Assembly: GCF_000172555.1 (NCBI RefSeq)
Contig: NZ_ABOX02000010.1
Coordinates: 124,001-188,000, forward strand
Reading direction: 5' to 3'
Length of the DNA stretch: 64,000 nucleotides
From: Pedosphaera parvula Ellin514
GTDB taxonomy: Bacteria; Verrucomicrobiota; Verrucomicrobiia; Limisphaerales; Pedosphaeraceae
The notes beneath the pieces were generated by a model. It was not told where the DNA came from, did not search any database, and saw only the letters and a program-made list of their open reading frames with translations. Shown in pieces: positions 46,620-51,426 of the stretch. Within the stretch, counting starts at the first letter, position 1. The number at the start of each line of letters is the position of its first letter. The position numbers and the translations under genes are program-made.

Positions 46620-47732
46620 CTAGCGCAATCCCAGCCCAAGCACTTCTTTACAATACTTCAAACTCCGCTCCAACTCACTCTTTTGATATTCCTGCTCTGC
46701 CGTTTTGTCGGCTGAATGATGTGGCTCAATGGCATGCCCACGCTTCGCCATCATCAAAAACTTCGCGAAATCATTCGCCCTGGCCTTCGGATACTGCTGC
46801 CAAAACTCCTGCTTCAAATAAGCATACTCCTTTGAAAATCCTGAAATGATCTCCAAATGCGCCGGCACACCGGGACAGACCTCCCCAAACTTTTTAAAAT
46901 AAACTTTCCAATCGACTAATCCCTCACCGGTCCCCGTCCACTGCACCTTCGCACCATCCGCGTACTCCCAAACCATTGAATCTCGCAATCCGGTCGACAA
47001 CACATACGGCGCCAAAATCTTCAAACTCTCCATCGGATCTTCCAGCGTCCAGGTCGCATTCCCGGCATCCAGCGTCGCCCCGACATATTCCTTCCCTGCT
47101 TCCTCGATCAAATTCACCAGTTCCCACGCCTGCATGTCACCTGCATGATTCTCGATCGCAATCTTCACCCCGGCATCCATCGCCCGGCTCCGCCCCGCCT
47201 TGCACACCTTCACCGTGTCCTTGATGCGCGCCTCAATCCCGCCTTCGGTCTTGCGATCATCCTGCATCCCCAAGATCACCCGCAATACTGGCGACCCCAA
47301 AGTCTGCGCCACTCGAATCCCCAATGCCAGGTGCTCATCCGCCGTTCCCCATTTATTTTTAAAGAACTTCGAAGTCGGACAAATGCTCCACGTTCCCGCA
47401 TGAATCTGCACTCCCACATCCTTCGCCTTCGCCCTCACATCCTTCAAATACGACTCGCTGAAATTCTCATACGCATCCAAATCAGAAATCAAAATGGAAT
47501 CCAATTTCAACGATGCCGCATAATCCAGCAACTCGGGTGCCTTCCATCCCATCGCCCGGATGGAAAAGTTGTCAAAACCCAGCTTGATCCCCGTTTTGGC
47601 TCCGCTGGGAGTTTGACTCTCCGCTTCAGCAGTCCCCACCAAAGCTATTCCAGCGCTTGCCGTGGCCACAGTTTTAATAAAAGTGCGTCGATCAGAATTA
47701 TAATTATTCGTTTCCATAGGAGGTCGCGTCAT
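46620..47732 (-). CDS. Tat-exported TIM-barrel sugar epimerase-like protein
   Basis: The 370-residue product has a twin-arginine signal ([20 protein letters not shown], cleaved near AEAESQ) and an AP-endonuclease-2-like TIM barrel with [37 protein letters not shown] and [14 protein letters not shown] as metal-site regions. It resembles sugar phosphate isomerase/epimerase proteins. Two starts are possible, ATG 47732 and ATG 47717. It is distinct from the 43943 protein but of the same kind. The membrane protein gene follows after 20 nt. Confidence 0.82.
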
Positions 47733-47768: not shown

Positions 47769-48605
47769 ATGTTTTCTGTGCCAACGTTCACTGGCCCGGT
47801 TGAATTCACCCCCAGCTTTTCTCCCCGCCCGCAAATCAGCCATGTGGTCTTCGATTTCGATGGCACGCTCTCCTGGCTGCGCCACGGTTGGCCGGAACTC
47901 ATGTATCAACTTTTCCGCCCGCTTTACCCCACTATTCCAGGCGAAACCGAAGCTACCATCCATAATTTTCTGCTCGGTGAAATTCTCTCGCTCAACGGCA
48001 AGCCTACCATCTTCCAGACCAACCGCTTCGCCGAACTCGTCCACGCTCGCGGTGCCCAATCTCCTTCTCCCGAAGCCCTCTTGCACGACTATCAATCCCG
48101 CCTCGACCAGATCATCGCAGAGCGCACCAACCTCATTTTGACTGGCCGCGCCTCGAAGGATGATTTTGTCGTCTTCGGCGCGCGCAAGTTCCTCGACCAA
48201 CTCCACGCACAAGGCATCAAGCTCATCATCCTCAGCGGCACCATCGAACACCGCGTCAAGGAGGAAGCCGCCTTGCTCAACCTGGCTCACTATTTCGGTC
48301 AACACATTTACGGCAGCCGCCCGGATTCCAACGAACTCTCCAAGCGCATTGTCCTCGACCGCCTCCTGCGCGACGAAAAAATCGAAGGCCACCACCTCCT
48401 TTCCTTCGGCGATGGTCCCGTGGAAATCTTCCACACCCGCGAACTTGGCGGTTTGGCGGTTGCGGTAGCCAGCGATGAGGACGATAATGGTTCAGGCAAA
48501 ATGGACCCCCACAAACGCCAGCAACTCCTCAAAGCGGGAGCCGACGTCGTCATTCCGGACTATCGGGATGCCGCCACACTGCTCAAAATGATTCTCCAGC
48601 GATGA
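47769..48605 (+). CDS. HAD-family phosphatase
   Basis: The 278-residue product has the HAD nucleophile motif VVFDFDGTLSWLRHGW (Asp29 and Asp31), a helical cap (about 35-120), motif II in IILSGTIEH and motif IV in LLSFGDGPVEI. It would dephosphorylate a small phosphorylated metabolite; the cap points to a phosphosugar. It begins a tight three-gene operon: its stop overlaps the next gene's ATG by 4 nt. Confidence 0.85.
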   Translation: MFSVPTFTGPVEFTPSFSPRPQISHVVFDFDGTLSWLRHGWPELMYQLFRPLYPTIPGETEATIHNFLLGEILSLNGKPTIFQTNRFAELVHARGAQSPSPEALLHDYQSRLDQIIAERTNLILTGRASKDDFVVFGARKFLDQLHAQGIKLIILSGTIEHRVKEEAALLNLAHYFGQHIYGSRPDSNELSKRIVLDRLLRDEKIEGHHLLSFGDGPVEIFHTRELGGLAVAVASDEDDNGSGKMDPHKRQQLLKAGADVVIPDYRDAATLLKMILQR

Positions 48606-49708
48606 AAAAGCTCCCCACCCCACTCGACCTCAAGCAACTCAAGGTGTTTCCCCTCGAGCAACGGCTCAGCGAAGCCACCATCGAAGACACGCTCATCAAT
48701 CTCGACGCTCCCCCGCCCGCTCTTCCCAACAACCTCATGCAGGTGGTTCGGGAAACAGCCAAAAGCATCGCCACGGCCCACAAGAAGCGCGCCAGCGTCA
48801 TGTTGCTTTACGGCGCCCACATCATCAAAAACGGTGGCGCACCCATCATGAACGCCTTGATGGAACTCGGCTGGATCACCCACCTCGGCACGAACGGTGC
48901 CGGCACCATTCATGATTGGGAATTCTCCTTCCTTGGTCGCTCCACCGAAAGCGTGAAGAAAAACGTCGCCACCGGCACCTTCGGCACCTGGGATGAAACC
49001 GGTCGCAACATCCATCTCGCCCTCCTCGCCGGTGCCCTGGAAAATCAGGGTTACGGCCAAAGCCTCGGCCGTTTTATCATGGAAGAAGGCACCACACTTC
49101 CATCCACCGACTCCCTTATCGAACTAATTTGCAAACATCCCACCCACCCGCTCACACCCGCCCGCACGGAATTGCTTCAAGCCATGGTGACCCACAATCT
49201 CCCTGCTGACCGCATCTCTGTTCCACATCCCTGGAAACAACACTCAGTCCTCGGCAACGCCTTTCGCCTCGGTGTTCCCCTCACCGTCCATCCCGGCATC
49301 GGCTACGACATCATCACCAATCACCCCATGTTCAACGGTGCCGCCATTGGGCGCGCCGCCGACATCGACTTCCGTCTCCTCAGCACTGCCGTGGATAATC
49401 TCGAAGGCGGCCTCGTCCTCTCCGTCGGCTCCGCCATCATGGCCCCGCAGGTCTTCGAAAAAAGCATCAGTTGCGTCAACAACATCCGCCTGCAAAACGG
49501 CCGCGCCATCGTCCACAACCATACCTTTTACATCGTCGACCTCCAGGACGGCGGGAATTGGGACTGGACCAAAGGCGAACCTCCCAAAGAAAACCCCGCT
49601 TACTATCTCCGCTTCTGCAAAAGCTTCTCCCGCATGGGCGGCACGATGCATTATCTCCAACTCGACAACGTCGCCTTCCTCCACAATCTCTATCACCTGC
49701 TCAAGTAA
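48602..49708 (+). CDS. Uncharacterised Rossmann-like protein, possibly deoxyhypusine-synthase-like
   Basis: The 368-residue product starts in ATGA overlap with the HAD gene and is followed by PfkB after 2 nt. Segments such as VMLLYGAHIIKNGGAPIMNA, ITHLGTNGAGTIHDWE and LVLSVGSAIMAPQVFEK recall the NAD-binding fold of deoxyhypusine synthase, but identity looks low and the match is by eye. Another conserved-looking region is the C-terminal NPAYYLRFCKSFSRMGGTMH. No signal peptide. I infer a cytosolic NAD-linked step on the same metabolite as its partners. Confidence 0.6.
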   Translation: MKKLPTPLDLKQLKVFPLEQRLSEATIEDTLINLDAPPPALPNNLMQVVRETAKSIATAHKKRASVMLLYGAHIIKNGGAPIMNALMELGWITHLGTNGAGTIHDWEFSFLGRSTESVKKNVATGTFGTWDETGRNIHLALLAGALENQGYGQSLGRFIMEEGTTLPSTDSLIELICKHPTHPLTPARTELLQAMVTHNLPADRISVPHPWKQHSVLGNAFRLGVPLTVHPGIGYDIITNHPMFNGAAIGRAADIDFRLLSTAVDNLEGGLVLSVGSAIMAPQVFEKSISCVNNIRLQNGRAIVHNHTFYIVDLQDGGNWDWTKGEPPKENPAYYLRFCKSFSRMGGTMHYLQLDNVAFLHNLYHLLK

Positions 49709-49710
49709 CC

Positions 49711-50730
49711 ATGGATGCAGCCCGCTTCCAATCCCTCACCCGCCAATATCGTAAGCTCCGCATCGCAGTCATCGGCGATTTCTGCCTCGACCGCTATCTC
49801 GAAATCGACCCGACGAAATCCGAAGTTTCCATCGAAACCAACCTCACCGTCCATAACATCACCCACATTCGTTCCCAACCCGGTGCCGCCGGAACCATCC
49901 TGAATAATCTCGTCGCACTGGGCATTGGCGAAGTCCACGCCGTCGGTTTCTGCGGCGAGGACGGCGAAGGCTTCGAACTCCGCAAATCATTGCAGCAACT
50001 CAAAGGCGTCAATACCACCCACTTCATCTCCACGCCACATCGACGCACCTTCACCTACACCAAACCCTTGGTAATCTCTCTGGGGAAAACTCCAAAAGAA
50101 CTAAATCGCCTCGACGTCAAAAACTGGTCCCCAACGCCTCTTCTGCTCCAGAAGCAAATCATTTCCGCTCTACACTCCATCGCCCCCAAAGTCGATGCCA
50201 TCATCCTGATGGACCAGGTCAGCATTCCCGAAACCGGCGTCATCACAACCAAAGTCCTCAAAGCCATCACCTCCATCGTAAAGCAGCACCCCCATCTCCT
50301 CATCCTCGCCGACAGCCGCCTCGGCCTTAAAAACTTTCCGCCAGTCTGCCTAAAAATGAACGCCGCCGAACTCGCCGCCCTCACCGGTTTGCGCACAAAA
50401 CTGAAACTCAAACAAGTTGCCACCTCCGCTTCAGCCCTGGCCAAACGCCACGGCCAAAATTGCTTCATCACCCTCGCTCAAAACGGAATCCTCGCCGCCT
50501 CCCCCGATGGCACCGTCGCCCATCTCCCCGCTCTCCCGGTTCGCGGCCCCATCGACATCGTTGGCGCCGGCGACGCCGTAACCGCCAACCTCACCGCCGC
50601 CATCGCCTCCCACTCAACCCTCCGCGAAGCGTTGGAACTCGCCAACGCCGCCGCCTCCATCGTCATCCACAAACTCGCCACCACCGGCACGGCCTCCGCA
50701 AACGAAATACAGAACATTCTCTATCATTGA
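49711..50730 (+). CDS. PfkB-family sugar kinase, HldE-like
   Basis: The 339-residue protein is a ribokinase/PfkB-family kinase. It has the N-terminal IAVIGDFCLDRYLEIDPTKS (the DxxLDRY form seen in RfaE/HldE kinases), a GGAA-like block that reads SQPGAAGTILNNLVALGI, and the anion-hole signature GAGDAVTANL near the C-terminus with the catalytic Asp. It probably phosphorylates a sugar or sugar phosphate. It is the third gene of the HAD-Rossmann-PfkB operon. Confidence 0.85.
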   Translation: MDAARFQSLTRQYRKLRIAVIGDFCLDRYLEIDPTKSEVSIETNLTVHNITHIRSQPGAAGTILNNLVALGIGEVHAVGFCGEDGEGFELRKSLQQLKGVNTTHFISTPHRRTFTYTKPLVISLGKTPKELNRLDVKNWSPTPLLLQKQIISALHSIAPKVDAIILMDQVSIPETGVITTKVLKAITSIVKQHPHLLILADSRLGLKNFPPVCLKMNAAELAALTGLRTKLKLKQVATSASALAKRHGQNCFITLAQNGILAASPDGTVAHLPALPVRGPIDIVGAGDAVTANLTAAIASHSTLREALELANAAASIVIHKLATTGTASANEIQNILYH

Positions 50731-50784: not shown

Positions 50785-51426
50785 TTACTTTATTTCGTCA
50801 CGCACTGCCTTGGACAAATGGTCGGAGCTATCCACGTCCAACAGCTTAGAAGAAAGCACAAGCATTGTACCGTTGTTTAACAGTTCAGCTCTTTCAACGA
50901 ATTTTGAAACTCTTGCTAATAGTTCAGTGGGTGTGAGTTTGAAAGCTCGCCCGCAAAGTTCTTTATCGAAATAACAAGCAGGAAAAATTCGATGTACCAT
51001 GCTTCTTGCATCAAAACGAATTTCATACAATGTTTCCAAGTCCCGTTCAATTAACTCTTCAGGCTGAAGCCATCCGAGATAAGCATCAAAGGCTATAACG
51101 AGCTGGGGAAAAACCGGGTTGAGAAGCTCCTTATAATTAATCGTGCTCGCATCGAATTGTATTTCTAGAAAGTCGTCTCGACCTGGTTCATCAACTAAGT
51201 CTCTCCTAAACGTGTAAAAAACGTTTCCTTTTAATCCATCGCCAAGCCACTTGCCGATTGCGCAGTGCGCGGTAAGCTCCCTCCCAAAGCCAGGAGCGGG
51301 TGGCGCCGTCTTCTTCCATGTCCATGGGGCGGGCAATCCTTGAAAAGCGGCGACCAGTCGTGAATGCTTTTCAGCAACGCTTTCTTCCCTCTTTGGCCGG
51401 GAACGCAATTCTAGGCTATATTTCAT
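50785..51426 (-). CDS. Hypothetical protein
   Basis: The 213-residue soluble protein (MKYSLELRSRPKREESVAEK) is not recognised. It is alpha/beta with no signal peptide, and has a Pro/Ala-rich stretch (about 31-46). The DNA looks less GC-rich than that of the flanking operon, so recent transfer is possible. It converges on pfkB, 54 nt away. 51427-51803 holds only the REP-like repeat. Confidence 0.65.
   Translation of the reverse strand: MKYSLELRSRPKREESVAEKHSRLVAAFQGLPAPWTWKKTAPPAPGFGRELTAHCAIGKWLGDGLKGNVFYTFRRDLVDEPGRDDFLEIQFDASTINYKELLNPVFPQLVIAFDAYLGWLQPEELIERDLETLYEIRFDARSMVHRIFPACYFDKELCGRAFKLTPTELLARVSKFVERAELLNNGTMLVLSSKLLDVDSSDHLSKAVRDEIK

Follow-up and report, generated by a model that had tools for sequence, protein, structure and literature searches.

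We found that three genes lying head to tail in the genome of Pedosphaera parvula Ellin514, in a stretch of 64,000 nucleotides (contig NZ_ABOX02000010.1, positions 124,001 to 188,000; hereafter the window), belong to a conserved unit built around a named protein family to which no function has been assigned. They encode a HAD-superfamily phosphatase, a member of the GSU2086 family (the middle protein) and a PfkB-family sugar kinase. In our estimate there is about an even chance that the cell has, separate from its ordinary ADP-heptose pathway, a second sugar-phosphate route of a GmhA/HldA-like kind, to which the trio would contribute the phosphatase, a dinucleotide enzyme and the C1 kinase. 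The sugar phosphate concerned would resemble one of seven carbons. A first-pass annotation of the window had taken the three genes for an undescribed unit, and as far as the searched literature goes this is so: no account of it and no title on it turned up, nothing was found that joins a deoxyhypusine synthase-like protein with heptose, and GSU2086 itself was met in PMC5585712. The tight layout that had drawn attention to the genes was confirmed to the exact coordinate, the middle open reading frame (ORF) overlapping the phosphatase ORF by 4 nt and the kinase gene beginning 2 nt after the middle-gene stop; the interpretation placed on it was partly supported, as set out below. A mechanical ORF list stretches the kinase frame upstream to 49471, and we took the ATG at 49711 as its start because this agrees with the homologues. 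All three products exceed the cut-offs of their families (PF00702, 47 against 26.4 bits; NF052581, 332.1 against 250 bits; the PfkB family PF00294, 88 against 25.8 bits).

Gene order was compared in 116 loci, namely 36 from a sample of 288 genomes of the phylum and the best 80 of 564 confirmed stretches on named contigs, a ranking biased toward close relatives of the window protein and toward its long form. The parsed loci number 113, the window among them, and 112 of these are distinct; going by their record titles, most of the named loci come from Verrucomicrobiota and Planctomycetota and some from Acidobacteria. Orders are abbreviated with HAD for the phosphatase, MID for the GSU2086-family middle gene, KIN for the PfkB kinase and SIS for a GmhA-like isomerase. 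In 46 of the 113 loci the middle gene had both HAD and KIN on its own strand at a distance of up to 3 kb, and in 61 it had at least one of them beside it on that strand; no locus (0/113) showed a HAD or KIN of more than 100 bits on the opposite strand up to 9 kb away from it. The order HAD-MID-KIN was found in 34 loci, with four more containing a SIS gene or a split HAD, followed by MID-KIN (10 loci, some ended by contig edges), HAD-MID (5), HAD-KIN-MID with or without SIS (3), MID with SIS only (3) and MID-HAD-KIN (1, with an over-extended ORF). Four loci (L047, L048, L051 and L073) carry beside the middle gene a KIN-HAD fusion, one protein of ~630 aa, and six genomes that have a middle gene (G114, G142, G145, G216, G221 and G226) encode a kinase-HAD fusion on a separate contig. 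Because the HAD-MID-KIN order recurs and opposite-strand partners are missing from all 113 loci, the arrangement is beyond chance and the module is real.

The middle gene scored over its cut-off in 35 of the 288 genomes. A profile of the module HAD matched above 200 bits in 17 genomes, and 17/17 were among these 35 (p 4e-18; this and the following p-values ignore shared descent, the 17 genomes representing 13 family labels). There is some circularity in this count: HADs adjoining the middle gene served to train the profile, and 9 of the 17 genomes contributed to that training set. When the training genomes were removed, the HAD matches were 8/8 within the 26 middle-gene genomes of 279 (p 2e-9), and in the six genomes where HAD and middle gene lie on different contigs they were 6/6 within 24 of 277 (p 2e-7). 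At the looser threshold of E<=1e-20, 21 of 22 matches fell in middle-gene genomes, HAD scoring being limited to the first 8 candidates in most of the 288 genomes, with misses possible on both sides. From this genome-level co-occurrence, we conclude that the genes of the trio behave as a functional set and show a tendency to joint inheritance.

Both outer enzymes retain the motifs of their superfamilies. In a 31-row alignment the HAD positions D29, D31, G32 and T33 (DxDGT), S156, K192 and G214, D215 and G216 (GDG) are invariant, so that the DxD, S, K and GD motifs accompany the PF00702 match; the kinase residues G285, A286, G287 and D288 (GAGD) are likewise invariant in 31 rows. Among solved structures, a profile comparison places the HAD nearest to phosphoserine phosphatases (E 8.5e-8), and its 12 weak NCBIfam matches (E<=1) include no model of GmhB, the heptose-bisphosphate phosphatase. 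The nearest solved structure of the kinase is the HldA/HldE kinase domain (4e84, heptose 7-phosphate kinase), which scores 92.7 bits where the next structure reaches 51.5, and to this extent the HldE-like label of the first-pass annotation stands. As an HldA/HldE kinase proper the protein falls short, scoring 152.7 bits on TIGR02198 against a cut-off of 345; the HldE adenylyltransferase domain TIGR02199 is absent among the matches listed (25 of 27), and the HldE model PRK11316 aligns over its kinase part alone (6-312 of 475). A separate HldA-like protein of the same genome comes closer (333 bits, just under the same cut-off), and HldE-type heptose activation is therefore not supported for this kinase.

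These likenesses raise the question of whether the module is nothing more than the cell's own pathway to D-glycero-D-manno-heptose 1-phosphate, in which an HldA, a GmhB substitute and an accessory protein would serve the ADP-heptose of lipopolysaccharide. We regard this as improbable. It would account for HldA being the nearest solved structure, for the GmhA-like SIS partners and the Geobacter hldE/gmhA context described below (PMC5585712), and for the HldD genes that adjoin the middle gene at two loci (L119 and L124). By contrast, the window genome encodes elsewhere, besides the separate HldA-like kinase, HldD (384 bits) and RfaE2 (182 bits), both over their cut-offs, and another GmhA homologue below its cut-off (146 bits), while genomes G209 and G259 carry the module but gave no match to RfaE2, no HldD that passes its cut-off and no further HldA-like kinase (E<=1e-20). 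In a 46-row tree the module kinases (21 rows) form one group (support 72/78; 70% of bootstrap trees), apart from the canonical HldA of related genomes (16 rows; 84/89; 82% of bootstrap trees), and nucleotidyltransferase-fused kinases form a third (100/100); the support for the split between module and canonical kinases is moderate. Judged by these comparisons, the module looks like a group of GmhA- and HldA-step paralogues together with a single enzyme that has another fold.

The HldD neighbours lie directly downstream of the middle gene and convergent with it on two acidobacterial contigs (L119:11057-12049 and L124:11057-12049, both minus strand), the family search being that of L119. They belong to neighbour cluster 14, found near the middle gene in L119, L124, L141 and L144, which is HldD in L119 and by eye NAD-dependent epimerases in the others. 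A role of the middle protein as general HldD replacement was rejected, HldD being over its cut-off in 9 of the 35 middle-gene genomes, the window genome included. Nucleotidyltransferase-kinase proteins with a SIS gene within ~4 kb and no middle gene on the contig were seen in G162:C19, G229:C73, G142:C50 and G216:C111; those of G229 and G142 belong to the third group of the kinase tree.

The middle protein, whose family the first-pass annotation had not recognized, is a member of NCBIfam NF052581, the GSU2086 family (profile 1-300 of 301), for which NCBIfam gives a name and no function. The window protein is a long form, with an extra ~40-45 residues when compared to the short forms of L011, L012 and L039. 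Its Pfam matches, ArgZ-like_C_2nd and DUF2715, are both sub-threshold, and NCBIfam adds faint matches to TIGR00300 and ArgZ. Residues N98, A100, H104, D105, E107, H230, D236, H241 and K287 are invariant in 30 rows of the family. An AlphaFold2 model built from a 30-row alignment (A1) reached a pLDDT of 94.3 and a pTM of 0.91. The top Foldseek matches of the model in the PDB were deoxyhypusine synthases, the Methanococcus LOR/SDH protein and ArgZ/AgrE (best E 4.8e-7), and VIA-align 2, run on the Foldseek candidates, gave Z 18.2 for AgrE (216 residues, 3.6 Å) and Z 17.8 for Pyrococcus deoxyhypusine synthase (249 residues, 3.9 Å). These matches bear out the deoxyhypusine-synthase-like fold suspected from the letters alone, and the middle protein is predicted to have the Rossmann fold of deoxyhypusine synthase and ArgZ/AgrE. 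The fold is known from polyamine/hypusine and amino-acid chemistry, and deoxyhypusine synthases and cyclodeaminases use NAD+ without net redox. On the strength of the modeled fold, the middle protein would also bind NAD+.

Could the middle protein then act on an amine or amino acid, as an enzyme of the deoxyhypusine-synthase/ornithine-cyclodeaminase kind linked to the kinase and phosphatase in some indirect way? The modeled likeness is broad. With deoxyhypusine synthase (8put, 7cmc and 1dhs) a whole-domain fold is held in common (Z 16.5-17.8 over about 250-267 residues), and the ornithine cyclodeaminase domain of ArgZ/AgrE (TIGR00300) and Methanococcus LOR/SDH (3c2q) come as close (Z 17-18) and share with the middle protein the stretch G..I..G....L..L...G.V..L....A..HD.E. 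This likeness in fold and weak sequence match, together with the 49 of 113 loci without a module gene beside the middle gene and a partial match to PF01916 (deoxyhypusine synthase; E 3.4e-14) upstream of it in L102 (8794-9597), would be expected of such an enzyme. Identity to deoxyhypusine synthase is, however, 10-15%, the alignment to ArgZ/AgrE is restricted to ~70 residues, the TIGR00300 score is 17.4 against the 410.8 bits of the equivalog cut-off, and PF01916 and TIGR00321 gave no match at E<=1. The middle gene moreover sits in a sugar-gene context, co-occurs with the module HAD and pairs with GmhA/HldE-type genes in differing contexts, so that an amine or amino-acid substrate has very little probability.

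Several other observations touch on these families. The relative L156 matches TIGR00321 weakly (18.8 bits against a cut-off of 304), as it does homospermidine models. The window genome's true TIGR00300 member lies elsewhere (G000:C1, 600.7 bits), on the contig that carries its true bifunctional ArgZ (arginine dihydrolase/ornithine cyclodeaminase; L010:46-2196, 1287.6 bits), to which the middle protein is distantly related. The neighbor tally includes another, stronger PF01916 neighbor (E 1.5e-92).

A wider set of partners recurs around the trio. A GmhA-like SIS gene is part of the operon at L044, L046, L072, L093, L110 and L123, and a ROK sugar kinase joins it in two five-gene operons, ROK-SIS-HAD-MID-KIN at L093 and SIS-ROK-HAD-KIN-MID at L072. 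HAD and KIN also occur unlinked from the middle gene, beside SIS in L180 and L183 and without an adjoining SIS in, for example, L166, L167, L178 and L179. In the window genome a ROK-SIS pair lies outside the window on contig C13, and this SIS fits the module profile better than the other homologue does (270 vs 141 bits); the top NCBIfam models for the partner SIS are those of phosphoheptose isomerase/gmhA, the D-sedoheptulose 7-phosphate isomerase. On the Chloroflexota plasmid CP069395 the order is HAD-MID-KIN-SIS. On the Solidesulfovibrio plasmid pDCAR1 (L157), a nucleotidyltransferase-kinase, MID and SIS lie in a radical-SAM-rich cluster with pseudaminic-acid genes; the family member there is shorter (321 aa), and the nucleotidyltransferase domain precedes the kinase domain, whereas the HldE model has the two the other way round. 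In Geobacter sulfurreducens, PMC5585712 places GSU2086, by locus tag, between GSU2085 hldE and GSU2087 gmhA, describes it as part of a sugar biosynthesis operon and reports similar mutant defects for the three genes in electrode growth (scores of -3.1 for hldE, -3.2 for GSU2086 and -3.7 for gmhA). The proposal that the three window genes act as a unit holds as far as co-occurrence goes, and from the partner genes and these Geobacter mutants the substrate is probably a sugar phosphate.

In the ordinary pathway GmhA, HldA and a phosphatase turn a ketose 7-phosphate into an aldose 1-phosphate. The substrate, step order, cofactor and reaction of the second route proposed here are modeled on such family knowledge. 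The ROK kinase would yield a terminally phosphorylated sugar, which the GmhA-like SIS isomerase would interconvert between ketose and aldose forms. The GSU2086-family protein may hold a tightly bound pyridine dinucleotide (NAD+, possibly the nickel-pincer nucleotide) that takes a hydride and gives it back, so that either a single stereocentre of the sugar phosphate or its carbon skeleton would be changed. C1 would be phosphorylated by the HldA-like kinase, and the HAD enzyme would strip the terminal phosphate to leave a sugar 1-phosphate. More tentatively, and with odds that we put at around one in three, the GSU2086 family could form a new sugar-phosphate branch on the deoxyhypusine-synthase/ornithine-cyclodeaminase fold, an epimerase or cyclase working by hidden redox with NAD+ or a nickel-pincer nucleotide; it would be the unusual one among the five genes (ROK, SIS, HAD, GSU2086 and HldA-like) of a pathway to a sugar 1-phosphate. 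These five genes, whole or in part, occur in Verrucomicrobiota, Planctomycetota, Acidobacteriota, and on Chloroflexota and Solidesulfovibrio plasmids.

The nickel-pincer option arises from the NCBIfam names of TIGR00300 and NF052526. LarC is present in 34 of the 35 middle-gene genomes vs 144 of the 253 others (p 3e-7), and a LarA-domain match in 30 of the 35; G004, G056, G162, G209 and G270 have LarC with no LarA match (E<=1e-8) and no TIGR00300 match (E<=1e-15). Given the database name and the LarC association, dependence of the middle protein on this cofactor is possible. The association may nonetheless be clade-borne, because many genomes of these families have LarC even though they lack the middle gene: a count by eye gave 27 such genomes with LarC and, the negatives being listed in part, at least 4 without it. 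A literature search brought up nothing joining ornithine cyclodeaminase, or cyclodeaminase in general, with the nickel-pincer nucleotide, and the available part of PMC8305020 mentions nickel-pincer and ornithine with no link between the two.

A number of observations weigh against a second GmhA/HldA-like route fed by the trio. The HAD and kinase genes are not both linked in the loci beyond the 46 counted above, and in the 49 without any partner the middle gene stands apart, among them the closest relative found (L076, 76% identity), which has no local HAD or KIN and no HAD match in its genome. Separation of the genes in relatives, which the first-pass annotation had held would tell against a unit, is thus seen in part, 61 loci keeping one or both partners. 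Among 27 named genomes without a local partner, 17 have a HAD elsewhere in the genome and 10, metagenome assemblies of unstated completeness, gave no HAD match genome-wide. In the phylum sample, 14 of the 35 middle-gene genomes have no HAD at E<=1e-20, and one match at that threshold, of 77 bits in G086, falls outside the middle-gene genomes. The window genome's module-type SIS scores 117 bits against the GmhA cut-off of 209 and differs from the second GmhA homologue of this genome at a number of positions that are otherwise like those of GmhA. No consistent nucleotidyltransferase is linked to the long-form operons (Pfam tally of 100 of 116 same-strand neighbors); the tally is diverse, with five aldo/keto reductases and four NAD epimerases among the matches listed (25 of 118 families), and a recurrent linked nucleotidyltransferase was rejected, as none recurs among these families.

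The plasmid CP069395 adds a further point of this kind. There the module is preceded, on one strand, by genes for a GntR regulator, a deoxyribose-phosphate aldolase (DeoC), a sugar ABC transporter and two Gfo/Idh/MocA proteins, and this transporter/DeoC gene run looks catabolic. The trio might accordingly serve to salvage or break down a sugar that the cell imports, the ROK/PfkB kinases and the isomerase preparing the sugar and the HAD and middle protein clearing by-products or re-shaping it for aldol cleavage; the xylose-isomerase-like TIM barrel divergent from the window operon would suit such a route as well, and 13 of the 113 loci have a member of its cluster no more than 6 genes away from the middle gene. 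We consider a catabolic role unlikely, at roughly one chance in four, for the transporter context was met once, the Solidesulfovibrio relative lies among pseudaminic-acid genes, PMC5585712 describes the Geobacter gene in a sugar biosynthesis operon, and a C1 kinase with a terminal phosphatase follows the sugar-activation logic of the HldA/GmhB pathway.

A second GmhA/HldA-like route would tie a fold of polyamine and amino-acid chemistry to sugar phosphates and so provide a function hypothesis for the GSU2086 family, whose Geobacter member matters for electrode growth according to PMC5585712. As the pathway proteins are co-inherited and of ordinary size (~190-370 aa), rebuilding the route in vitro is feasible, with a product readable by mass spectrometry.

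Table 1. The three-gene operon and the genes bounding it (window positions).
Feature	Position	Strand	Evidence or remark
HAD-superfamily phosphatase, 278 aa, ATG start, first operon gene	47769..48605	+	PF00702 47 bits; conserved catalytic motifs
GSU2086-family middle protein, 368 aa, ATG start	48602..49708	+	NF052581 332.1 bits; AlphaFold2 model
PfkB-family sugar kinase, HldA-related branch, 339 aa	49711..50730	+	PF00294 88 bits; GAGD intact
Divergent xylose-isomerase-like TIM barrel (PF01261), weak TAT-signal match	46620-47732	-	starts 36 nt upstream of HAD gene
Convergent ORF bounding the downstream end	50785-51426	-	no family match over cut-off

A phage or mobile origin of the middle gene was rejected: phage records and viral contigs gave no match to it, and plasmid records gave two. 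The TIM-barrel cluster is on the strand opposite to the middle gene in 11 of the 13 loci in which the two occur together.

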